Source: a virus. Taken from it: a stretch of DNA of 21,468 nucleotides. The notes below the pieces were generated by a model. That model searched no databases. It saw nothing but the letters and a program-made list of their open reading frames with translations, and was not told the origin of the DNA. Made by a program: the position numbers and the translations under genes. Numbering within the stretch: the stretch's first letter is position 1; the number at the start of each line of letters is the position of its first letter. Positions 1,792 to 20,220 of this stretch are shown here, piece by piece. The DNA lies in IMG/VR virus record IMGVR_UViG_3300032299_001139, positions 1 to 21,468 of that record; one strand, written 5' to 3'.

Positions 1792-1810
1792 CAATAGTTA
1801 TTTACACTAG
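1792..1810 (-). promoter_or_regulatory. Putative phage promoter motif driving the metallopeptidase gene
   Basis: Read on the minus strand, the sequence is CTAGTGTAAATAACTATTG directly followed by ATG. It shares TAGTGTAA plus a TAT element five bases later with motifs before four other genes in the window. GTGTAA ends only 10 nt from the start codon, so a -10-type element here would give a very short or absent 5' leader. No -35 box is evident. The promoter role is inferred from recurrence and position. Confidence 0.5.
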
Positions 1811-1849: not shown

Positions 1850-1871
1850 TTTTGTGTAAACCTATAGAATA
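1850..1871 (+). promoter_or_regulatory. Putative phage promoter motif for the sigma/terminase operon
   Basis: A T-rich run leads into TTTGTGTAAACCTATAGAAT, 19 nt from GTGTAA to the ATG at 1879. The same spacing (18-19 nt) is seen before the portal and protease genes. It faces the minus-strand copy at 1792-1810, making a divergent pair within about 85 bp. The sequence matches the recurrent T(T/A)GTGTAA(A/T) element, and the promoter role is inferred. Confidence 0.55.
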
Positions 1872-1878
1872 CTAGTGT

Positions 1879-2283
1879 ATGAAATATTTTTGCTCAAAAT
1901 GTGGCAAGACCACCCAATATAATTTTGAACTACCAAAATTTTGTGCTTTTTGTGGGCAATCGTTTGCTAGTAAAACATCTTCCATGCCAGTAGAAGATAA
2001 AAGAAATAAATTTTTAAATGAATTAAAATTAAAGAAAAATATAAACTCTATAGAAGTTGATGATGAGAGTTATGATACAATAGATAGCAATATTGACTTT
2101 AAAAAAATTAAACCATCTTTTAAAGTAGATGTTTATCAAGCAAAAGGGGAATCTTTTGGTAGTTTAATTGATAATCCATCTGCTCCTATTGAGATAAATA
2201 ATCAAAATAATATTCAAACAAAAACTAAAGAAGAAATTTTATCAGAATTTCAAAAAGAAGCTGGCTCGTTAAGATCTAAATAA
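1879..2283 (+). CDS. Small zinc-ribbon protein upstream of the sigma-like factor
   Basis: This 134-residue protein opens with a zinc ribbon: C5-x2-C8 and C22-x2-C25, the second as FCAFCGQSF. The rest is polar and Lys/Asp/Asn-rich, with probable disorder around residues 34-105 and a short C-terminal helix (TKEEILSEFQKEAGSL). It is the first gene of the operon and lies one base before the sigma-like gene. Zinc ribbons usually bind nucleic acid or protein, and the context makes a transcription cofactor plausible (compare the T4 gp33/gp55 pairing), but no homology to gp33 is claimed. There is no Shine-Dalgarno; the ATG follows the promoter-like motif by 19 nt. Confidence 0.75.
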   Translation: MKYFCSKCGKTTQYNFELPKFCAFCGQSFASKTSSMPVEDKRNKFLNELKLKKNINSIEVDDESYDTIDSNIDFKKIKPSFKVDVYQAKGESFGSLIDNPSAPIEINNQNNIQTKTKEEILSEFQKEAGSLRSK

Positions 2284-2284
2284 T

Positions 2285-2995
2285 ATGCCACGCAAAAAAA
2301 AAGGCGTTGTTAGACCATCTTTTGAAGAATCGATAGATATTATTAATTCTGAAATTCAAAAACGCAAACATCGTTGGCATTTAACTGCCATCGCATGGAT
2401 GGATTTCGAGGATGTTGCTCAAAGATTAAGAATACATATTTATAAGAAATGGGAGAAATGGGATCCACTGCGCCCTATGAGGCCATGGCTTAATCAAGTT
2501 ATTAACCACCAAATGACAAACATGTTGAGAAACCATTATTCTAATTTCTCGCGCCCATGTTTAAAATGCCCATTTAATACTGGAGATTATGGTTGTTCTA
2601 TATATGGAACACAAAATAATTCTTGTAAGGACTATTCTAAATGGGAAAAAAGTAAAAAATCAGCTTATGACGTAAAATTCCCATTAAGTATTCATAGTCC
2701 AAACCATGACAACCCTGAAACAACCTTGGAAAATGTTTTACATGATACGGAGAACATGATGGATATAGAAAATTTAATGCCACTTTTCCATGAAATCATG
2801 AAGAAAAATCTAAGTCTCATTGAGTGGAAAGTTTATGATTATATGTTTTTACAGCATTTAGACGAGTCCGAAGTAGCAAAAAAAATGGGTTATAAATTAA
2901 GTTTAAAAGAGGGGCGGCCAGCATATAGACAAATTAGTAAAATTAAATCAAAAATTTTACAAAAAGCGCGCGAAGTTGTAAGGGAGGTTTTATAA
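2285..2995 (+). CDS. Sigma-70-family-like transcription factor with four-cysteine insertion
   Basis: This 236-residue protein has the layout of a small divergent sigma factor. Residues 40-86 (DFEDVAQRLRIHIYKKWEKW, then PWLNQVINHQMTNMLRNHY) look like sigma region 2, with the acidic/aromatic start and the PWL...N...N helix typical of ECF-like factors. Residues 176-230 (LSLIEWKVYDYMFL, then DESEVAKKMG and a basic helix RQISKIKSKI) look like region 4 with a helix-turn-helix. Between them is an insertion with C92-x2-C95-x8-C104-x9-C114, probably binding zinc, which ordinary sigma factors lack. The N-terminus is basic (PRKKK). It would bind host RNA polymerase core and direct it to phage promoters. 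Position upstream of the terminase and the recurring GTGTAA motif suggest late-gene control (inference). The start is one base after the previous stop, in the TAATATG context common here. Confidence 0.7.
   Translation: MPRKKKGVVRPSFEESIDIINSEIQKRKHRWHLTAIAWMDFEDVAQRLRIHIYKKWEKWDPLRPMRPWLNQVINHQMTNMLRNHYSNFSRPCLKCPFNTGDYGCSIYGTQNNSCKDYSKWEKSKKSAYDVKFPLSIHSPNHDNPETTLENVLHDTENMMDIENLMPLFHEIMKKNLSLIEWKVYDYMFLQHLDESEVAKKMGYKLSLKEGRPAYRQISKIKSKILQKAREVVREVL
2981..2988 (+). promoter_or_regulatory. Strong Shine-Dalgarno site, unusual for this window
   Basis: AGGGAGGT lies six bases before the ATG at 2995, inside the last codons of the sigma-like gene. It is the best anti-16S match in the window; most other starts have none. 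It supports ATG 2995 as the true start of the probable small terminase and shows that the host ribosome can probably use SD sites. Confidence 0.65.
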
Positions 2996-4107
2996 TGGAA
3001 GAAATTCTTACATTAGAACAGCAAAATAGATTAAAAGAATTTTTGCAAAAAAATCCTGAAGCCACCCTCACAGAAATTACTGCTTATACTTATAATAATG
3101 AAAATATTGATAGCCGTAGTAAAGAAGGGCGGATTTTAAAACAATATTTATTAGATAATAATATTGAATATAAAAATCGGTCAGTTTTCCAAAGGGGTCG
3201 CGTTTCATTAACAAAAGATCAAGAAGAATTTATAAAAAATAATTATAAAAATCAACACTATTTAGATATGGCGAAAATCTTATTTAAAAATAATACTTTA
3301 ACCCATCTAAGTCTCGAATCGCGCGAAGTTAACAAATATGTTAACAAACTGCAAAAAGCAGACCCTACTTTTTTGAACATGACGACTTATGTTCCCAAAG
3401 AATCGGAAGTCACGACCCCAACCCCTCTGGGTGAATACTTTCCACCGCGCCGTATGGATCAAACATTATATCGAATTAATAAATATCTTAACTTGGGGTG
3501 GGAGGATAAGAAATTAAAAGCCGTTCAGACTAAGCAAGTCGAAATGTTGCAAAGATATTTGAATACTTTTAGTTTTTGTTATCAAATTAATACCTATCGT
3601 CGTGAAGACGATAGAAAATTATTTGAGGATGCTTTTATCCGTTATACATATGATAAAGAAGATCTTACGCAAGAAGAACTAGATCAATTTATTACCTTAT
3701 GTACTGAGACAGTTACGGCTTCAAGTATTTTGCAACAGGTTGAGGACTTGCGTCAATTATTGAGACAGGCATCGGAAGAAGACGATGGTCGCAATATTAA
3801 AATGAGCCTTAATGAGGCAATTAGTAGCTTACAAACTGAATACAACCAATGTCGTAATAGACAAAATAAATTATATAAATCACTTGTAGATGATCGATCT
3901 AAAAAAATACAGGAGCGCAAGGAAGAAAACGCAAGTATTCTTAATTTAGTGCAAGCGTGGAAAGACGAGGAACGTCGTAAAAGTATTATTCACCTCGCGG
4001 AAGCTCAAAAACAAAACCTGCAAGACGAAGCTAAACGCTTATCATCAATGGACGAGTTAAAAGCGGTAATTCGTGGAATTGATATTGATGAAATGGTTCA
4101 TAGTTAA
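2995..4107 (+). CDS. Probable terminase small subunit (DNA recognition)
   Basis: This 370-residue protein overlaps the sigma-like gene by one base (TAATG) and has a strong Shine-Dalgarno. The N-terminal ~115 residues are helical and look like HTH DNA-binding modules: a 'LTEITAYTY' helix pair, then SLTKDQEEFIKNNYKNQHYL near residue 72. The middle (125-230) is mixed, and residues 245-355 are a long charged coiled coil. A DNA-binding N-terminus, an oligomerising helical part and a place just ahead of the nuclease and large terminase fit a small terminase subunit that recognises phage DNA and stimulates TerL. It is larger than typical TerS (140-200 residues). No diagnostic motif proves the assignment; another DNA-binding packaging factor is possible. 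Confidence 0.5.
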   Translation: MEEILTLEQQNRLKEFLQKNPEATLTEITAYTYNNENIDSRSKEGRILKQYLLDNNIEYKNRSVFQRGRVSLTKDQEEFIKNNYKNQHYLDMAKILFKNNTLTHLSLESREVNKYVNKLQKADPTFLNMTTYVPKESEVTTPTPLGEYFPPRRMDQTLYRINKYLNLGWEDKKLKAVQTKQVEMLQRYLNTFSFCYQINTYRREDDRKLFEDAFIRYTYDKEDLTQEELDQFITLCTETVTASSILQQVEDLRQLLRQASEEDDGRNIKMSLNEAISSLQTEYNQCRNRQNKLYKSLVDDRSKKIQERKEENASILNLVQAWKDEERRKSIIHLAEAQKQNLQDEAKRLSSMDELKAVIRGIDIDEMVHS

Positions 4108-4118
4108 TATAATATATT

Positions 4119-5054
4119 ATGAATAAGAACAAAATATACTTAAAATGTAAAGTTTGTGGTGAAGAATTTAATTATTTTGCTGAACTACAAAAACATTTAA
4201 GATATTACCATAAGCTTTCTTGTAAAACTTATTTTGAAACTTATTGGAAGCGCATTGATCGTTTTAATGGAACAAAATTAGAATATAAATCTTTTGACCA
4301 ATATATTACTTGCGATTTTGTTGATAAAAAAAACTATAAAAACTGGTTAAAGACTCTTTCCAAAGAAGAGTGTGCGGATTATTTTAAAAGTAAGTTAGAG
4401 CAATATTGTGATTTAAAAACTCTTGATATGACGCCCAGTCAGGTAGAGTGTCAAAGTATTAATTGTTTATTACCTATTAGTACAATGGAAGCTTTGTCTG
4501 GAATCTGTTACAATGATTTATGTAAAAAAATTGGATTGCATTCCAGATTTAATTATCAAATTCCTGATGAAATTCCTTTCACTCCTGTTCCACAAATTAT
4601 TGTAGATAGTCGTGAACAAAAACCATTTCATTTTGAAGAGCATACTTTAATTGAATCTAAATTAGAATATGGCGATTATTCTCTTCACCCTAACAATAAA
4701 TTAGCAGTAGAGAGAAAAAGTTTATCTGATTTATATGGAACTTTGAGTGGTGGCCGCGAAAGATTTGAACGCGAAATTCAAAAGGCTAAAAAAATGGAAG
4801 GTTATATTGTCGTAGTTGTAGAATCGACTCTCAATAATATGATGTATCAAAAACAAAAATTTGGTAAAGCTTCTGGCGAGTTTATTGCTCATAACATGAG
4901 AAAATTATTACGTCAATATGATAATTTACAATTTGTTTTTTGTGATGGGCGCGAAGAAGCCAGAAATAAAACACTTCATATTTTAGGTATGAATGAAGAA
5001 GCTTGTAAAATAGATTTACAATATTACTTTGATACAAAATGGCACTCATCGTAG
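4119..5054 (+). CDS. C2H2 zinc-finger + ERCC4/XPF-type nuclease
   Basis: This 311-residue protein has an N-terminal C2H2 finger (C10-x2-C13-x12-H26-x4-H31) followed by YYHKLSCKTYFETYW, a fold used for DNA binding. Residues 158-245 match the ERCC4 nuclease core: IIVDSREQKP (D163, R165, E166), LEYGDYSL (D186) and VERKSLSDL (E198, R199, K200, D204), equivalent to the XPF family GDxnERKx3D signature. It should be a metal-dependent structure-specific endonuclease, cutting branched or flap DNA. It overlaps the large terminase start by 16 bases, so a role in trimming or resolving replicative concatemers before packaging is likely (inference). TerL has its own RNase H-like nuclease, so this is an extra activity. 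No SD; start ATG lies after an AT-rich 11 bp gap. Confidence 0.8.
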   Translation: MNKNKIYLKCKVCGEEFNYFAELQKHLRYYHKLSCKTYFETYWKRIDRFNGTKLEYKSFDQYITCDFVDKKNYKNWLKTLSKEECADYFKSKLEQYCDLKTLDMTPSQVECQSINCLLPISTMEALSGICYNDLCKKIGLHSRFNYQIPDEIPFTPVPQIIVDSREQKPFHFEEHTLIESKLEYGDYSLHPNNKLAVERKSLSDLYGTLSGGRERFEREIQKAKKMEGYIVVVVESTLNNMMYQKQKFGKASGEFIAHNMRKLLRQYDNLQFVFCDGREEARNKTLHILGMNEEACKIDLQYYFDTKWHSS

Positions 5055-6943
5055 GAAATCAAAAAAAATCTAAACCATTAGCTAACGTTAATAAAGAATT
5101 GCTTGATTTAAAAGGCGATTTAACCGACGAAGAAGCAAGGGTTAGCCTTGCTAAATTTCTAAGATATAATCTTGGTTTTACTACGGAATTATCAATGGGC
5201 TTGACATTAGAAGCTTATCAAGAATTAACGTTAAATTCTTTTTTTAATAGAAACTATTGCATGTTAGTATGGGGTCGTGGTGGTGCTAAAAGTTTTTGCG
5301 CTGCAATCTATTGTATTCTCAAATGCATGCTAGAACCTGGAACTAAAATACTTATTGCATCTATTAACTTTCGTACTAGCCGCCGTGTTTTTAATGAAAT
5401 TGAAAAATTTTTAATGTCTCCAGGGGCGGCTCTAGCGCGACAATGTTTTGGTTTAAAAAGCAAGCGTAATGACCAGTACGAATGGCAAATTAATGGCGGT
5501 AGTATCACAGCTATCCCACTAACTGGAGAAAAAATTCGTGGTATCCGTGCTAACGTACTTATATTGGACGAGTTTTTACTTTTACCCCCAGATATTATTG
5601 ACAATGTTCTTATTCCATTCTTGAGTTCGCCAAGAGATGTAGGCGAACGTATTCGTATTAGAAAATTAGAAGAAGAATTAATAAAAAAGGGCTTATTACA
5701 TCCAGATAATAGACATATCTTTGAGAACACATCTCAAATGTTATGTTTAAGTTCTGCAAGTTATACCTTTGAACATTTATTTCGCGTTTATCAACAATGG
5801 TCGCATTTGGTAGAACATCCAGACGAACAAGAGTCTAAAGAGGGCGAGCTTCCTGGGACATATTTTATTTCCCAATTAAGTTATGAAGCCTTACCACAAC
5901 ACATGGTAGATCAAGGCGCGATTCAAGTTGCTAAAAGTGGTGGGAGTTCACATCATTCGTTTTTACGTGAATATTGCGCCCGTTTTATTGATGGTGGGGA
6001 TAGTTATTTCTCACCTAAAAAAATGCATGACTGTACGATTCCAGATGGAGAATACCCAACCACTAAAGTAATTGGAGATAGTGATAAAAAATATATTATA
6101 TCTATTGACCCAAATTTTTCTTCTTCAAAAGGTGCTGACTATTTTGCTATGAGCGTTATTGAGATTGACGAAGAAAAGAAGCAGGGTATTTTAGTACATG
6201 GTTACCAAGCGGCTGGCTCATCTTTACAAGATCATATAAAATATTTTTATTATTTATATAAAAACTTCAATATTGCCTTAATTGTAATTGACCATGCTGG
6301 TGCGGATACTTTTATTGACGCGGTTAATAACTCTCAATTTTTTAAAGACATAAATCGTAAAATTGGTTTTGTGGATTTTGACTCTGATAAAGAAAATGAA
6401 GATTATACTAAAATGTTAAAAGACTGCGCTCGTCAATATAATAAAGATTTTGGTAATATATGTATTAAACAATATTTTACTAGTTTTTTCTTGGGTCGCG
6501 CAAATTCTTATTTACAAACCTGCATTGATCATAAAAAAATATGGTTTGCCTCGCGCGCGAGTAACCATCCCGATATCTTAGAAAATATTTTTACAATGAA
6601 CCTTCCAATGGAATATATTTACCCAAGAGGAATTGGAGATAAAGCTGATAATGAATTTGAGACTAAAAAATTAACTGTTAGAGAATTTATAGAACAACAA
6701 GATTTTATTGTACAGGATACTAAAGATCAGTGCGCCAATGTTGAAGTAACCACAACATCTAGGGGCACTCAGAGTTTCGATCTGCCATCTCATTTGAAAA
6801 AATCTACAAGTATAAACAGGGCTAGAAAAGATAATTATACAACCCTGATGCTTGGTAATTGGGGCGTTAAAGCTTATTTTGATATAATGGCTCCAGAGAA
6901 CTTTGCGAAAAAGAATACAACTTTTGTCGCAGAATTAATCTAA
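5039..6943 (+). CDS. terL: Terminase large subunit (packaging ATPase and nuclease)
   Basis: This 634-residue protein is the packaging motor. The ATPase domain shows a Walker A variant WGRGGAKSF (78-86), Walker B VLILDEF (173-179, D177/E178) and a coupling-motif-like CLSSAS (236-241). The C-terminal RNase H-like nuclease begins with YIISIDPNF (D357) and continues with LIVIDHAG (D418), expected metal ligands. Length is normal for TerL (450-700). The start overlaps the nuclease gene by 16 bases; the next Met is at residue 53, inside what looks like the conserved N-terminal region, so 5039 is preferred. It docks on the portal encoded next and translocates DNA using ATP. A 12 bp GC palindrome lies within the gene at 6550-6561. 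Confidence 0.95.
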   Translation: MALIVGNQKKSKPLANVNKELLDLKGDLTDEEARVSLAKFLRYNLGFTTELSMGLTLEAYQELTLNSFFNRNYCMLVWGRGGAKSFCAAIYCILKCMLEPGTKILIASINFRTSRRVFNEIEKFLMSPGAALARQCFGLKSKRNDQYEWQINGGSITAIPLTGEKIRGIRANVLILDEFLLLPPDIIDNVLIPFLSSPRDVGERIRIRKLEEELIKKGLLHPDNRHIFENTSQMLCLSSASYTFEHLFRVYQQWSHLVEHPDEQESKEGELPGTYFISQLSYEALPQHMVDQGAIQVAKSGGSSHHSFLREYCARFIDGGDSYFSPKKMHDCTIPDGEYPTTKVIGDSDKKYIISIDPNFSSSKGADYFAMSVIEIDEEKKQGILVHGYQAAGSSLQDHIKYFYYLYKNFNIALIVIDHAGADTFIDAVNNSQFFKDINRKIGFVDFDSDKENEDYTKMLKDCARQYNKDFGNICIKQYFTSFFLGRANSYLQTCIDHKKIWFASRASNHPDILENIFTMNLPMEYIYPRGIGDKADNEFETKKLTVREFIEQQDFIVQDTKDQCANVEVTTTSRGTQSFDLPSHLKKSTSINRARKDNYTTLMLGNWGVKAYFDIMAPENFAKKNTTFVAELI

Positions 6944-6955
6944 TAAAATATCAGA

Positions 6956-6981
6956 TTTTAGTGTAATAGACTATTATAATA
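6956..6981 (+). promoter_or_regulatory. Putative phage promoter motif for the portal operon
   Basis: The 42 bp gap between TerL and portal holds TTTTAGTGTAAT then AGACTATTATAATAAG. GTGTAA (6961-6966) is 19 nt from the portal ATG, the same spacing as at 1854. TATAATA inside the motif also resembles a bacterial -10. No hairpin terminator precedes it, so read-through from the terminase operon is possible. The assignment rests on recurrence of the motif. Confidence 0.55.
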
Positions 6982-6985
6982 AGTT

Positions 6986-8890
6986 ATGGCGCGTGATACT
7001 AATAAAAATATTAAGTTCCCAGAACCACAGGTAATTGAAGGATCTATAAAATCAAAAGATACTATAGAAGTCAAAGCTAGTCGCGGGGAAGTGAATTCTT
7101 CCGTAAGAAGAAATAGGTCATCCACAATCTCTAGAACTGATAAATATGCAAATATTGAGGGTGGGGTAATTCCTTTTATTTATGGTGGTGGTTATGGTAA
7201 ATATACCTCAAATATTAGTATAAAAGATACTATTATCTTATGTCAAAAGGCTTATTATAATTTTTCTATTTTTAGAAATACTATTGATTTAATGACCGAG
7301 TTTAGTTGCTCGCCTATTTATTTTACTGGTGGCAATGAACAATCCCGTAAATTTTTCCAAGCATGGGGGGACCGTGTCAATTTATGGAAATTACAAGATA
7401 TGTTTTTCCGCGAATTTTTCCGTAGTGGAAATGTATTTTTATATAAATTAAACGCACAATTTACAAAACAAGACATGCGCGTTCTTACTGATTTAATTAC
7501 GACAGAGGCGCGCACGGGAGAAATTCCGGTTAGATATATTATTTTAAATCCTGCTGATATCCAAGCTATTGGATCAGCTTCATTTATTACTCCTCAATAT
7601 ATTAAAGTTTTAAACGATTTTGAAATGCAAGTTTTAACAAATCCAGATAATGAACAAGATAGAGAACTTGCTCAAAGAGTTAAGAATGTAAGAGATTTAA
7701 AAACTACTAGCAATATTACCCAATCAAATCAATACATGATATTTGAATTAGATCCAGAAAGATTTATTCCAGTATTTTATAAAAAACAAGATTATGAACC
7801 ATTCAGCGTCCCGATGGGTTTCCCAGTTCTCGAAGATATTAACTGGAAGCAAGAACTTAAAAACATGGATATGGCAATCAGCCGTACAATACAGCAAGCG
7901 GTCTTATTGGTTACAATGGGAAATGATGAAGTCGGTATGCCGACTAAAGAACAAATCGGAACGTTAAGAAAAATTTTCGAAAATGAAAGCGTGGGTCGTA
8001 TTCTGGTGACTGATTATACAACCAATATTAAATTTATTATTCCAGAAATCAGTAATATCCTTGATCCTAAAAAATATGAAGTTGTTGATCGTGATATTCG
8101 TTATGGTTTAAATAATGTTCTTTTTGGCGAGGAAAAATATGCCAATACTAATACTAAAATAGAAGTATTCTTATCAAGATTAAAGCATGCGCGTGAAACA
8201 TTTATGAATGAGTTCATTTTACCAGAAATGAAAAAAATTGGTAAAAATCTTGGTTTTAAAAATTTGCCAGTCGCACGTTTTAAAGACGCTGATTTTAAGA
8301 GTGACGCAAATCTGACGCGCGTTTATTCAAGGCTTATAGAATTAGGCGTTCTTACTCCAGAAGAGGGAATTACGGCTATAGATACTGGAAGATTACCCCT
8401 ACCCGAAGAAAGTGTTGAATCTCAACAGGAATTTCGGAAACTTCAAGAAGACGGTTTATACCAACCACTTTTAAATAAGCCCCAACAACAACAAACTGGT
8501 CGCCCTGCTGGAACCGGAACCCCCCAAACAACAAAAGCGCCTAGAACAGCGCCAACTGTTCAAGCATCGGAAGTAAAACCTAAAATTAACGCGGATCTTG
8601 TAGCTAAAAATCTAGTAAAATTTGATAGTTTAGTTGAAGCGGTTGAAACAACTTTAAAAGAAAAGTATGATCGTAAAAGATTAACAAAAGAACAAAAAGA
8701 AATTATTCAAACAATTGCGGAAACAATTGCAACAAATGAATCTCCAAAAGACTGGATGAATAAAATCAATGACTATATTAATAAACCCGTACAAATAAAT
8801 GTAAATATGGAAAAAATTAATGAAATTGCCGCTGAATACGGGCTAGATTATAAAACAGCAATTTTATTATATCATAGCAAATTAGATTAA
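6986..8890 (+). CDS. Portal protein
   Basis: This 634-residue protein directly follows TerL. After a basic/Ser-rich N-terminus (1-55) comes a Gly-rich loop (IYGGGYGKY, 65-73) and a portal-like core starting QKAYYNFSIFRNTIDLMTEFS (87-107), the conserved region of ring-forming portals. A long helical crown region follows, with LEDINWKQELKNMDMAI near 281-297 in the expected stem/clip area. Residues ~490-530 are a Gln/Pro/Thr-rich linker (low complexity), then a helical C-terminal extension that many portals lack. It forms the dodecameric ring at one capsid vertex through which DNA enters and leaves, and the platform for TerL and the neck. No SD precedes the ATG. The call rests on position, length and these segments. 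Confidence 0.85.
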   Translation: MARDTNKNIKFPEPQVIEGSIKSKDTIEVKASRGEVNSSVRRNRSSTISRTDKYANIEGGVIPFIYGGGYGKYTSNISIKDTIILCQKAYYNFSIFRNTIDLMTEFSCSPIYFTGGNEQSRKFFQAWGDRVNLWKLQDMFFREFFRSGNVFLYKLNAQFTKQDMRVLTDLITTEARTGEIPVRYIILNPADIQAIGSASFITPQYIKVLNDFEMQVLTNPDNEQDRELAQRVKNVRDLKTTSNITQSNQYMIFELDPERFIPVFYKKQDYEPFSVPMGFPVLEDINWKQELKNMDMAISRTIQQAVLLVTMGNDEVGMPTKEQIGTLRKIFENESVGRILVTDYTTNIKFIIPEISNILDPKKYEVVDRDIRYGLNNVLFGEEKYANTNTKIEVFLSRLKHARETFMNEFILPEMKKIGKNLGFKNLPVARFKDADFKSDANLTRVYSRLIELGVLTPEEGITAIDTGRLPLPEESVESQQEFRKLQEDGLYQPLLNKPQQQQTGRPAGTGTPQTTKAPRTAPTVQASEVKPKINADLVAKNLVKFDSLVEAVETTLKEKYDRKRLTKEQKEIIQTIAETIATNESPKDWMNKINDYINKPVQINVNMEKINEIAAEYGLDYKTAILLYHSKLD

Positions 8891-15710: not shown

Positions 15711-15756
15711 TAATAAAATTATAAAAATTAGTGTAATGTATTTATAATAATAAAAT
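15705..15756 (+). repeat. 15 bp direct repeat flanking the HNH/protease junction
   Basis: TTATAATAATAAAAT occurs at 15705-15719 and 15742-15756. The first copy includes the HNH stop codon, and the second runs into the protease ATG. The copies bracket the promoter-like motif. It may be a trace of duplication at the HNH insertion or only low-complexity A/T sequence. Confidence 0.45.
15726..15750 (+). promoter_or_regulatory. Putative phage promoter motif for the capsid operon
   Basis: AAATTAGTGTAATG followed by TATTTATAATAA lies in the 44 bp gap, with GTGTAA (15731-15736) 18 nt before the ATG. It matches the 6961 copy in TTAGTGTAAT and contains TATAATA. It would drive protease/scaffold, decoration and capsid genes up to the terminator at 19216. 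Confidence 0.55.
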
Positions 15757-17485
15757 GCCGACTTACGATGATGAGCCAGTAAAAAATGTTGAGTCCTTAA
15801 CTGGGTTTGACTTGTCCGATTTACTTTTTTCTTTCTCGCGCCCAATCTCTTTGTGCGCTATGGAGCTAGATAAATTCGAAAACAATAAAATTGTTATTAG
15901 CAATAAACTCAAAAATGTTGCCCTGTTAGCAGAACAAAGTGTAAATTTACCAATGGATACAATGAAAGATTTTAAATATTCAATTCGTTTTGACGGTATT
16001 ATAGTTCAGGCAATGGTTTCGTCTGATGAAGATAAATATTTAGCAGTGGCGTCTGTTGACCAATTAAAAGAATATCTTCCTAAGAATGTTGATCTTGATG
16101 TAAATCGTGATTTGATGGGCGTTGCTTTTGATGCTTTCGTTGTTAATCGCGGAAATAAAAATGGACATATTATTAGTACAGACGTTGCCCTAGCAATGGT
16201 TGAAAATTTTATTAATAAACCTTTTAATATTGAACATAATCGCAAAGTTGTAGTTGGTGTTTGTACTGGTTATGGATTTAGCGAATTTGGTAGTAGCAAA
16301 CCATTGACTCTTGAAGAAGTTAAAACTAGAAAAGATCCTTTCAACGTTGTTCTTTCTGGATACGTATGGAAAATTGTAAATCCTGATTTTGCTTCAGAAC
16401 TCGTTGAGAGTAGCGACCCGTCTTCTAATAAATATCTTTCTGTTAGCGCAAGTTGGGAACTCGGGTTCAATGAGTTTAATGTTGCTAAAGGTAATAAAAA
16501 TTTAGCAGATGCAACTATTATTGAGAAAGAAGAAGATATTGTAGAATTAAAAGATCGCCTTAAAGTATTTGGTGGAAACGGTTTTACTGAAGATGGTGAG
16601 ATGGTTCTTTTAAATCTTCAGGGGAATGTTCTTCCATTAGGAATTGGTTTTACAAATACTCCCGCCGCCGAAGTTAGTGGCGTTGTTATTTCCTACGATA
16701 AACCAGAAGTAGAAGAAGCTGTAAAAGCCGAAGATGATGCCAAAGAAGAAAAAATTGTAGAATCGTCTGAAATTAAAATGAATAAAAAAAGTGTCCAAGA
16801 AGAAAATAATAATGTAAAAAATAATATGCAATTAAATAATATTGATGATATTACGGAAGATTCCATTAAGGAAATTGCTGCAAGCCAAGTTCGTGAATTT
16901 ATTTCGAATCGTATTGCAGACCTTGCAAAAGAATGGCAATCAAAAGTTGAAGAAAAAGAAACAGCACTTAAAGCCGCTGAAGATCAAATCGCTGAATTAA
17001 AAACCAGTCTTGAATCAATCAAAGCTGACAGTGAAAAAGTAAAAGAAGAATTCACAAAAATTCAAGAAGATCTCAAAGCCAAAGAAATTGAAGCCAATTT
17101 CCAACGCCGTATGTCCTTGCTTGATGAAGAGTTCGATCTTACTGATGAAGATCGTAGTATCATCGCAGAAGATTTAAACACCATTGAAAACGATGAACAA
17201 TTCGAAAAATGGTATAAGAAGTTTTCTACATTCGCCGCTGCGAAAAAGAAGTCGGCAAAGAAATTCGTACTCTTCAAAAAAGAGGGCGAAGAAAAAGACG
17301 AAAAAGACGCTAAGGAAGAAAAAGCTTCCGAAGTTGTCGCCAGCGAAGAAAAAACTGTAGAAGAAGTAATTTCGAGTGCAGAGGTAACGGAAGAAGTCCT
17401 TCCAAACGCTTCCTCTCCTCAAGAAGTTTCACTGGTTGAAAAAATCAGCGCCGCTTTCAATAAAAATAGCGTAAAAATTAAATAA
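15755..17485 (+). CDS. Prohead protease fused to capsid scaffold
   Basis: This 576-residue protein joins two assembly functions. Residues 1-330 look like a herpes/T4 gp21-type prohead serine protease: H161 in PFNIEHNRKVVVGVCTGYGF and a serine in KYLSVSASWELG (S229 or S231) give the expected His/Ser pair. Residues ~330-365 are an acidic, Lys-rich linker. Residues ~375-480 are a long charged coiled coil (KEWQSKVEEKETALKAAEDQ), typical scaffold. The C-terminal 100 residues are Glu/Lys-rich. During assembly the scaffold organises the capsid and the protease then degrades it. An in-frame ATG at 16778 (Met342) could start a scaffold-only product. No SD; an A-rich leader precedes the ATG. Position before the capsid gene supports the call. 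Confidence 0.8.
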   Translation: MPTYDDEPVKNVESLTGFDLSDLLFSFSRPISLCAMELDKFENNKIVISNKLKNVALLAEQSVNLPMDTMKDFKYSIRFDGIIVQAMVSSDEDKYLAVASVDQLKEYLPKNVDLDVNRDLMGVAFDAFVVNRGNKNGHIISTDVALAMVENFINKPFNIEHNRKVVVGVCTGYGFSEFGSSKPLTLEEVKTRKDPFNVVLSGYVWKIVNPDFASELVESSDPSSNKYLSVSASWELGFNEFNVAKGNKNLADATIIEKEEDIVELKDRLKVFGGNGFTEDGEMVLLNLQGNVLPLGIGFTNTPAAEVSGVVISYDKPEVEEAVKAEDDAKEEKIVESSEIKMNKKSVQEENNNVKNNMQLNNIDDITEDSIKEIAASQVREFISNRIADLAKEWQSKVEEKETALKAAEDQIAELKTSLESIKADSEKVKEEFTKIQEDLKAKEIEANFQRRMSLLDEEFDLTDEDRSIIAEDLNTIENDEQFEKWYKKFSTFAAAKKKSAKKFVLFKKEGEEKDEKDAKEEKASEVVASEEKTVEEVISSAEVTEEVLPNASSPQEVSLVEKISAAFNKNSVKIK

Positions 17486-18066: not shown

Positions 18067-19191
18067 ATGAAAATTCAATTCGATAAAAACCCTGAGCAAA
18101 TCGAGCTTATCAAAGCCCTTGCCTCAGATAACAAAACAGTTGCCGTAGAAGCTCAAGAAGCTTTTGCAGCATTCATCAGTGATGTCGTTCAGCAAGTTCT
18201 TTTACAAGCTGGTACAGCTTCAATGATTTATCGTGACGTAGAATTTGACGAAGACGATTCTCCCTCGATTCCTCTCGACTTATACTATGGTCTTAACGAA
18301 GGTCACATCAGCGTTTGGTCACAAACAGTAGGTGGCGGTCTCCCAACAAACTTTGTTCAAGGTATGCAAGAGATGAAGGTTAATACCTATCGTCTTGACA
18401 GTGCTATCAGCATGGACAAACGTTATGTTCGCAGAGCCCGTCTCGACGTTGTTGCTGCTGGTTTAGAACGTATGGCCAATGAAATTCTTGTCAAACAAGA
18501 ACGTAATGCTTGGGCTGTTATTCTCAAACTCTTGGCCGAAGCTTCCACAAACAGCACCAAACACGTTTTCCGTGTAGGTACTGCTGGAACTTTCCAACTC
18601 GACGACATGAACAAGCTCTGGACTTTAGTCCGTAGACTTAATGCTGCTTACACAGGTGGTACCCCACAAGCTCTTCAAAGCCGTGGATTAACCGATATCT
18701 TCGTAAGCCCAGAAGTCAAGGAACAAATTCGTGCGTTCGCTTATCAGCCAATGAACACCCGTTCTGGCGCTGTTACTACAAGTGGTGCTACTTCGGTAGC
18801 TCTTCCTGACAGCGTTCGTGAAGAAATCTATCGTGCCGCTGGTACGAACGAAATCTTCGGCGTAACAATTCATGAATTGCTTGAACTCGGTGAAGGCCGT
18901 AAATATAATGACTTGTTTGACACTTTCGCTGGTGCAACACAATTCAATACTTATGGACAATCCGGTGGGACAACATTCACAAGCGCAACCGATGAATTAA
19001 TTCTCGGTATCGACGCTAGCCGTAACGCTTTCTTGCGCCCAGTCGCAATCCAAAGCGAAAGCCGTGGTCAAGTCAAGGTTCTTCCTGACGATCAATTCTT
19101 GGCTCGTAGCCAAAAAGTTGGTTTCTACAGTTATGTAGAAGAAGGCCGCGTAGCTGTTGACGCTCGTGCAGCTGTTGGTTTAATTGTATAA
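18067..19191 (+). CDS. Major capsid protein (HK97 fold)
   Basis: This 374-residue protein is the expected size for an HK97-fold capsid subunit. It follows protease/scaffold and decoration genes. The N-terminal arm and helix (1-60) are followed by an acidic E-loop-like segment (FDEDDSPSIPLDLYYGLNEG, about 61-80). A long helix (about 126-162: RLDVVAAGLERMANEILVKQ) fits the P-domain spine helix. The C-terminus (QKVGFYSYVEEGRVAVDARA) matches the usual final strands. Its codons strongly favour C-ending forms, and the G+C of sampled stretches is near 45-50 percent against about 25-30 in other genes, a sign of selection for very high expression. The leader is A-rich without SD. It is the last gene before a strong terminator. 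Confidence 0.85.
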   Translation: MKIQFDKNPEQIELIKALASDNKTVAVEAQEAFAAFISDVVQQVLLQAGTASMIYRDVEFDEDDSPSIPLDLYYGLNEGHISVWSQTVGGGLPTNFVQGMQEMKVNTYRLDSAISMDKRYVRRARLDVVAAGLERMANEILVKQERNAWAVILKLLAEASTNSTKHVFRVGTAGTFQLDDMNKLWTLVRRLNAAYTGGTPQALQSRGLTDIFVSPEVKEQIRAFAYQPMNTRSGAVTTSGATSVALPDSVREEIYRAAGTNEIFGVTIHELLELGEGRKYNDLFDTFAGATQFNTYGQSGGTTFTSATDELILGIDASRNAFLRPVAIQSESRGQVKVLPDDQFLARSQKVGFYSYVEEGRVAVDARAAVGLIV

Positions 19192-19670: not shown

Positions 19671-19686
19671 TTGTGTAAAATAGTAT
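19671..19686 (+). promoter_or_regulatory. Putative phage promoter motif abutting the connector start
   Basis: TTTGTGTAAAATAGTAT fills the 19 bp gap, and GTGTAA (19674-19679) is only seven bases before the GTG start. It matches the recurrent element. If GTGTAAAAT contains the -10, transcription would begin at or just inside the start codon, giving a leaderless message. A minimal ATG-TGA overlaps the start at 19685-19690. Confidence 0.5.
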
Positions 19687-20220
19687 GTGAACTGTCAAAA
19701 TTATTTAACACAATTAGTTGCCAATGTTTATTATGATTTAGGAGAACCTTCGGATTATACTCCTGCAAGATTAACTGCATGGTTTATAGATGACTCAAAT
19801 CTAGGTAAATTAAATAACTTAATTGGAACTTCTTTTTCCGGAGTTGCGTACAGAAATAATAATGGAATGATTACTGGATATGGAGTAAGTCCAGAACCTA
19901 ATAATGACCAACTCGCAATTTACAAAATGATTTTTGATTGTGATTATTTAAAAATTCAATCTAGAAATTTAGCAAAAAGTTCTGCTACCATTGGAAATGA
20001 TTGGACTGATTTAAGAGAAGGTGACAGTTCTATTAAAAAAATTAATAAAAATGAAATTTCAAAAAACTTTCGCGGTTTGGCACAAGATTGTAAAGCAGAA
20101 TTAGATAAAGCTGCTAAAATGTATCTGAAATATAATGCTATTCCAGACCAAGTTGCGGGTGACGATACCGAAGGAGTCTCGCATTACATAATTCAAGAAT
20201 ATCAAAGAACTTTAAATTAA
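19687..20220 (+). CDS. Probable head-tail connector/adaptor protein
   Basis: This 177-residue protein begins with GTG. An in-frame TAG at 19681 and no other nearby start codon force this choice. It is mainly helical (NCQNYLTQLVANVYYDLGEP at the N-terminus; helix 132-150 FRGLAQDCKAELDKAAKMYL), like gp6/gp15-type adaptor proteins that sit under the portal. It has no enzymatic motif. The place after the capsid gene and before two further neck-like genes supports an adaptor or head-completion role. The sequence alone does not define the family. Confidence 0.5.
   Translation: MNCQNYLTQLVANVYYDLGEPSDYTPARLTAWFIDDSNLGKLNNLIGTSFSGVAYRNNNGMITGYGVSPEPNNDQLAIYKMIFDCDYLKIQSRNLAKSSATIGNDWTDLREGDSSIKKINKNEISKNFRGLAQDCKAELDKAAKMYLKYNAIPDQVAGDDTEGVSHYIIQEYQRTLN

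Follow-up and report, generated by a model that had tools for sequence, protein, structure and literature searches.

Late transcription in phage T4 starts from promoters that consist of a −10-type element only, with no conserved −35 element and with AT-rich DNA downstream (PMC2988020). Compact late promoters close to the start site are also used by phages AR9 (AACA-N6-TA/G) and phiKZ (TATG) (PMC5312081), both of which encode their own RNA polymerase. Among bacterial sigma factors, CorE carries a CXC motif in the linker between σ2 and σ4 and senses metal through cysteines (PMC8999054), and OrbS senses Fe(II) through C-terminal cysteines (PMC9023288); CorE, CorE2 and OrbS have C-terminal Cys-rich regions and mediate metal responses in bacterial physiology. 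In initiation complexes of extracytoplasmic function (ECF) sigma factors, the σ2/σ4 linker enters the active-center cleft and leaves by the RNA-exit channel, a task that zinc ribbons and readers perform in archaeal and eukaryotic factors (PMC6372665).

Here we describe a locus in a 21,468-bp fragment of an uncultivated virus (the window, meaning the whole stretch analyzed) in which the terminase operon is headed by a zinc-ribbon protein, ZnR, and a σ70-family protein with a four-cysteine linker module, Cys4 sigma (Table 1). On balance, we consider it probable that Cys4 sigma is a phage late sigma factor that turns host RNA polymerase to GTGTAAT promoters, with ZnR as its likely partner. The gene order ZnR, Cys4 sigma, ORF3, ERCC4-type nuclease, TerL and portal is strictly syntenic, and the nuclease gene always lies between ORF3 and TerL. 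For ORF3, two helix-turn-helix-like segments are predicted along with a long coiled coil, and a structure search with it returned no significant match. The divergent gene on the other side of the operon's promoter region encodes a HEYCH metallopeptidase-like motif, has a weak SprT-like match and carries its own GTGTAA box.

Table 1. Features of the window, numbered from its first nucleotide
Feature	Position	Strand	Basis or remark
Divergent gene opposite the ZnR operon	1204-1794	−	
Divergent GTGTAA box of gene 1204-1794(−)	1802..1807	−	Retained in G001 and G002 at 16 nt from the start
GTGTAA box 25 nt 5′ of the ZnR start	1854..1859	+	Predicted to drive the ZnR-sigma-ORF3-nuclease-TerL operon as its late promoter; distance of 24-25 nt kept through most of the window's clade
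TATAGAAT, itself an overlapping σ70-like −10 candidate	1863..1870	+	TATAAT here in related lineages
ZnR, zinc-ribbon protein, 134 aa	1879..2283	+	ORF; heads the terminase operon
Four-Cys knuckle of ZnR (C5-C25)	1891..1953	+	Alignment
ZnR C-terminal conserved peptide EEILSEFQKEAGSLR	2230..2274	+	Alignment
Cys4 sigma, 236 aa, ECF-like two-domain σ70-family protein	2285..2995	+	Pfam/NCBIfam, AlphaFold2, structural matches
Sigma region 2 (residues 8-88)	2306..2548	+	VIA-align to 9isn_F, Pfam, conservation in 84/84
C92-x2-C95-x8-C104-x9-C114 module in the σ2/σ4 linker	2558..2626	+	84/84 homologs
Sigma region 4 (residues 160-235)	2762..2989	+	VIA-align to 2h27_D and 5wur_A
ORF3, 370 aa, helical, invariably 3′ of Cys4 sigma	2995..4107	+	Synteny, model
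ERCC4-type nuclease with N-terminal C2H2-like finger	4119..5054	+	Same operon as Cys4 sigma
TerL, terminase large subunit	5039..6943	+	PHROG phrog_2, E 9e-24
GTGTAA box 25 nt 5′ of the portal-like gene	6961..6966	+	Conserved in G001 and G002
Portal-like protein	6986-8890		Downstream of TerL
GTGTAA box 24 nt 5′ of gene 15755-17485	15731..15736	+	
Structural-region gene	15755-17485		Behind GTGTAA box 15731
GTGTAA box 14 nt 5′ of the GTG start at 19687	19673..19678	+	Leaderless geometry

An earlier note on this DNA had described the 2285-2995 product as sigma-like, with a C-x2-C-x8-C-x9-C insertion between parts resembling regions 2 and 4 and a separate zinc-ribbon gene just upstream, and our analysis bears out each of these points. 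Cys4 sigma matches the Pfam family Sigma70_r2 (PF04542) over residues 38-84 (E 4e-6) with 27 bits, above the cut-off of 24 bits, and this family also scores above cut-off in all seven genomes searched. The NCBIfam sigma70-ECF model matches residues 34-204 (E 5e-8) with 32.7 bits, short of its cut-off of 42.9 bits, and region 2, including D43 and Q46, can be aligned with CnrH at its region 2 helix. The AlphaFold2 check proposed in the earlier note likewise predicted a sigma fold: the model (mean pLDDT 74.9, pTM 0.38) places the Cys module in a linker of lower confidence (pLDDT about 50-70) between two helical domains that are predicted with confidence, and the arrangement of these domains relative to each other is uncertain. 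Each of the Protein Data Bank matches that Foldseek listed is a sigma factor, or a complex or model that includes one, and none has E < 0.001. Whole-chain VIA-align comparison gave SigL (6dv9, Z 9.3) and SigmaE (1or7, Z 9.0) as the best matches; by domain, region 2 superposed on 9isn_F (Z 8.0, rmsd 2.5, 81 residues) and region 4 on SigmaE bound to −35 DNA (2h27_D, Z 9.1, rmsd 2.6, 68 residues), 5wur_A (Z 8.8, rmsd 1.7, 63 residues) and 3vfz_A (Z 8.8, rmsd 1.9, 62 residues). At the level of the predicted structure, these matches confirm an organization of σ2, linker and σ4 with the Cys4 module inside the linker.

The cysteine spacing runs exactly from C92 to C114, and all four cysteines are kept in each of 84 distinct homologs (less than 95% identical to one another), down to about 42% identity. 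W38, D40, D43, Q46, P67 and W68 are also invariant in all 84, and 24 homologs have a fifth cysteine that turns the module tail into C-x6-C-x2-C. Conservation of the four-cysteine pattern across this alignment is far above chance, and the module probably binds zinc. D43 and Q46 are presumably the equivalents of σ70 D403 and Q406, the region 2.2 contacts for core RNA polymerase; region 2 is predicted to combine binding of core polymerase with recognition of the −10 element.

In functional terms, late transcription in T4 comes closest to this system. Like the gp55/gp33/gp45 system, it would pair a phage σ70-family factor that redirects host polymerase with −10-only late promoters, AT-rich DNA downstream of them and a small candidate partner. 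T4 gp55, however, consists of σ2 and a C-terminal clamp-binding peptide, whereas Cys4 sigma has a full σ4 and the Cys4 linker module; because σ4 is present, Cys4 sigma is not a member of the gp55 family. The late elements also differ, an 8-bp TATA box in T4 and GTGTAAT here, where many late mRNAs are predicted to be leaderless. In domain order Cys4 sigma resembles bacterial ECF factors such as Mycobacterium tuberculosis SigL and Escherichia coli SigmaE, which have σ2, a linker and σ4 without σ3, but it differs from them in its linker Cys4 insert, the lack of a −35 element, the late phage genes concerned and the lack of a known anti-sigma. Unlike CorE, CorE2 and OrbS, it has a complete CxxC...C...C motif inside the linker and no Cys-rich tail. 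The compact phage-specific late promoter close to the start site recalls phiKZ and AR9, but the phage-encoded polymerases of those phages have no counterpart found in the Cys4 sigma genomes. Bacillus phage Stills, in the nearest cultured TerL group, has an annotated ECF-subfamily sigma of 236 aa upstream of TerL, but this protein has no Cys4 insert and does not match the Cys4 sigma profile, and GTGTAA is not enriched in Stills.

ZnR accompanies Cys4 sigma without exception. Its gene lies directly 5′ of the Cys4 sigma gene in 127 of 127 loci, with no locus lacking it among those with at least 700 nt of upstream sequence, and it occurs once per genome in seven genomes. The protein has an N-terminal CxxC-x13-CxxC knuckle, a variable middle and a conserved C-terminal peptide, EEILSEFQKEAGSLR, which is a possible docking motif; C5, C8, C22 and C25 are invariant in 25 aligned homologs, and L121, E127 and R132 nearly so. 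ZnR is most likely a dedicated partner of the Cys4 sigma holoenzyme, acting as coactivator or regulator, and the two-part switch suggested in the earlier note is plausible from adjacency and conservation. ECF sigma factors are commonly co-transcribed with anti-sigma factors, some of which bind zinc (compare PMC8999054). ZnR could, by this parallel, be an anti-sigma or gatekeeper that holds Cys4 sigma until late infection rather than a coactivator, and its strict adjacency and conserved C-terminal peptide would fit such a role; however, the knuckle differs from the HxxxCxxC motif of ZAS zinc anti-sigma factors, and the gene lies upstream of its sigma gene. We regard this gatekeeper function as possible but unlikely. 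Membership of ZnR in the ZAS family itself we rejected, as the protein lacks HxxxCxxC and has no invariant histidine.

The earlier note had proposed that the switch reads GTGTAA. A plain count in the window shows no enrichment (11 copies against 10.4 expected), and five of the 11 lie just 5′ of start codons (Table 1). The picture changes in nine relatives, represented by genomes or near-genomes of 125-209 kb with 1,793 genes. There, 99 copies of GTGTAA stand 12-18 nt 5′ of a start codon where 3.9 would be expected, most often at 14 nt (log10 P −99, with sites that are not fully independent because some of the nine genomes are close relatives), and GTGTAA ranks first of all hexamers at this distance. 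Its density is 3.8-7.5 times higher in intergenic than in coding DNA across the nine genomes, and the larger sigma clades retain it at identities as low as 41%. Two unrelated phages gave ratios of 1.06 and 1.59 and no genes with the motif, and a literature search for GTGTAA as a phage promoter yielded nothing relevant. The motif is thus real and promoter-like.

Promoter geometry places this motif at the −10 position. Distances to the start codon are 14 nt for GTGTAA, 13 nt for TGTAAT, 12 nt for TATAAT and 35 nt for TTGACA; the host-type TTGACA/TATAAT promoters are leaderless here, with +1 at the A of ATG, and using them as a ruler identifies TGTAAT at 13 nt as a −10 element. An alignment of 157 non-redundant sites gave GTGTAA(T/A) with AT-rich flanks and a preference for T at +13, and information of at most 0.12 bit at each position from −40 to −7 relative to GTGTAA; GTGTAA promoters therefore have no conserved −35 element. 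Shine-Dalgarno (SD)-like sites are found at none of the 99 genes with GTGTAA at 12-18 nt and at 20 of 68 with GTGTAA at 22-45 nt. The lack of such sites at the short distance implies leaderless late mRNAs: transcription would start about 13-14 nt 3′ of GTGTAA, and GTGTAAT promoters probably give mRNAs that begin at the first codon. Exact TATAAT at 12 nt is partly confounded as a pure σ70 marker, since in many late genes TATAATAA separates GTGTAA from the start.

Among the genes examined, many small ones carry no assignment; those behind GTGTAA include the genes for the tape measure protein, tail-related proteins, PhoH, a ClpB-like ATPase and the portal-like protein, and those behind TTGACA/TATAAT include the genes for DnaB helicase, a clamp loader, a dNMP kinase, a polymerase-like fragment, rIIB and a second phage sigma factor, S2. 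This split is the classical division into early and late genes, and it places GTGTAA on late genes. We found no phage RNA polymerase β or β′ subunit in the genomes; host polymerase must therefore be used. A search of seven genomes for a T4-type sliding clamp (gp45, PF02916) gave nothing above cut-off and one sub-threshold match, in G001. A search of the residual genes for a third promoter class, one that might belong to S2, turned up nothing beyond A-tracts near −45, AGGA sequences of SD type and weak σ70 boxes; TAATAG looked asymmetric but has no fixed position. The A-tracts, centered near −45 in genes without a recognized promoter in the nine genomes, are reminiscent of UP elements. Separately, G011:160001-180000 (L194) holds about 20 small early genes, each with a near-identical TTGAC-...AAAAAGAT...-GTATAAT promoter, an unusual family in that its spacer is invariant.

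Each of the nine genomes checked encodes both Cys4 sigma and S2, a core protein of the family of about 195 aa found at G001:96405(+), G002:121314(−), G003:175898(−) and G004:23240(+), for example; PF04542 missed it in G011 and G013, and an S2 profile recovered it in all nine. In G003 it adjoins an SSB gene, whereas in G001, G002 and G004 it lies beside a conserved gene of small size. Presence or absence consequently fails to separate the two factors; several long contigs have S2 without Cys4 sigma and are possibly fragments. Some marine members also encode a third, primary-sigma-like factor (L114:14426-15283 in G004, 285 aa; G012:159442-159654). As no third promoter class emerged, there is none to assign to one of the two shared sigmas, and S2 could be the factor that reads GTGTAAT, with Cys4 sigma as one of its targets and serving a later or different function. 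S2 has a sigma-like region 2.3/2.4 and stands under a host-type promoter in G001 (TTGACT...TATAGT) and in G002, and GTGTAA precedes the operon of Cys4 sigma itself in the window's clade. Over the same genomes, however, S2 is less conserved than Cys4 sigma (28-35% against 44-47% identity) while GTGTAA stays constant, and it lacks the canonical region 2.2 D/Q pair that Cys4 sigma keeps.

The promoter of the ZnR-sigma operon also bears on this question. A TATAAT-like box precedes the operon in 47 of 57 lineages against 21.5 expected, and in most lineages outside the window's clade GTGTAA was not found there, so the operon need not depend on a GTGTAA reader and Cys4 sigma could be produced before GTGTAA promoters fire; this argument is weakened by the AT-rich TATAATAA leaders also present at late genes. 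The suggestion in the earlier note that the factor controls itself would consequently hold for the window's clade, where its operon has the motif, and not for most other lineages; self-control by Cys4 sigma, if it occurs, is limited to some clades. One point against Cys4 sigma as reader is the conservation of its σ4 domain in spite of the missing −35 element at the late promoters. Because it is the more conserved factor, keeps the D/Q pair and has a TATAAT-type box in most lineages, Cys4 sigma rather than S2 is the likely reader of GTGTAAT as judged from sequence comparison, and we hold the assignment to S2 to be improbable, if still a serious contender.

Recruitment of the sigma fold to packaging, as a small-terminase-like DNA-recognition protein outside transcription, is very improbable: the strict synteny with TerL and portal would suit it, but D43/Q46 and the entire two-domain sigma architecture are invariant, a phage-specific promoter class exists and needs a reader, and ORF3 is a better small-terminase candidate than Cys4 sigma, although still a weak one whose resemblance to the HK97 small terminase is non-significant (Foldseek E > 2). 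That GTGTAA serves as a signal for translation or RNA processing and not as a promoter is barely credible, since its fixed short distance from start codons has to be set against its place at the −10 position that the host-type promoters of these genomes mark out, the contrast in SD-like sites between its two distance classes, its partition by gene class, its divergent occurrence between genes and its AT-rich, melting-region-like flanks.

With Cys4 sigma as the late factor, infection would begin with host polymerase and its own σ70 transcribing the TTGACA/TATAAT genes, including replication genes, rIIB and S2. Cys4 sigma would first be made from a TATAAT-type early or middle promoter, and its region 2 would then bind host core polymerase. 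The resulting holoenzyme would recognize the −10-type GTGTAAT without a −35 element and switch on head, tail and packaging genes, and initiation shortly past the motif would leave many late mRNAs leaderless. Where the factor's own operon carries GTGTAA, as in the window's clade, positive feedback would be added, and ZnR may act on the holoenzyme as coactivator or regulator. Because the Cys4 module directly follows region 2, it may enter the cleft or sit at the region 3 DNA contact upstream of −10. A more speculative extension, which we consider doubtful, is that the module replaces the σ2/σ4 linker or region 3 and forms, with ZnR, a zinc-module initiation apparatus dedicated to leaderless late mRNAs from the −10-only GTGTAAT promoters, comparable with the zinc ribbons of TFB in archaea and TFIIB in eukaryotes but acting on bacterial RNA polymerase.

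Close relatives of Cys4 sigma occur in at least 120 IMG/VR contigs, and a profile search extends the family to at least 502 uncultivated virus contigs; no match was found among 50,697 phage records. The window's TerL is about 24% identical to those of cultured (Bacillus) phages over 58% of its length, and no cultured-phage relative of the gene at 18067-19191 was found. A search of 84,980 bacterial and archaeal genomes gave one match, on contig NZWA01000041.1 (L173) in a Flavobacteriales metagenome-assembled genome bin, which does not by itself establish the host. The TTGACA/TATAAT early promoters are unlike typical Bacteroidota promoters.

Phage late sigma factors are a kind already known, and what is new here is the linker Cys4 module and the GTGTAAT promoter. 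Together, these data define a large, never-cultured aquatic phage family with its own Cys4 sigma and a new late promoter that is recognizable by eye, and with what appears to be a complete and readable transcription program, with early promoters for host σ70, a pair of phage sigmas and a single late promoter. Host core RNA polymerase is the only requirement of the system, which should make it tractable in vitro. If Cys4 sigma reads GTGTAAT, a single motif would suffice to call late genes in these genomes; the sigma repertoire would gain a metal module embedded in the linker, the very part that runs into the polymerase cleft in known ECF complexes, and these phages would offer a natural case of large-scale use of leaderless late mRNAs.
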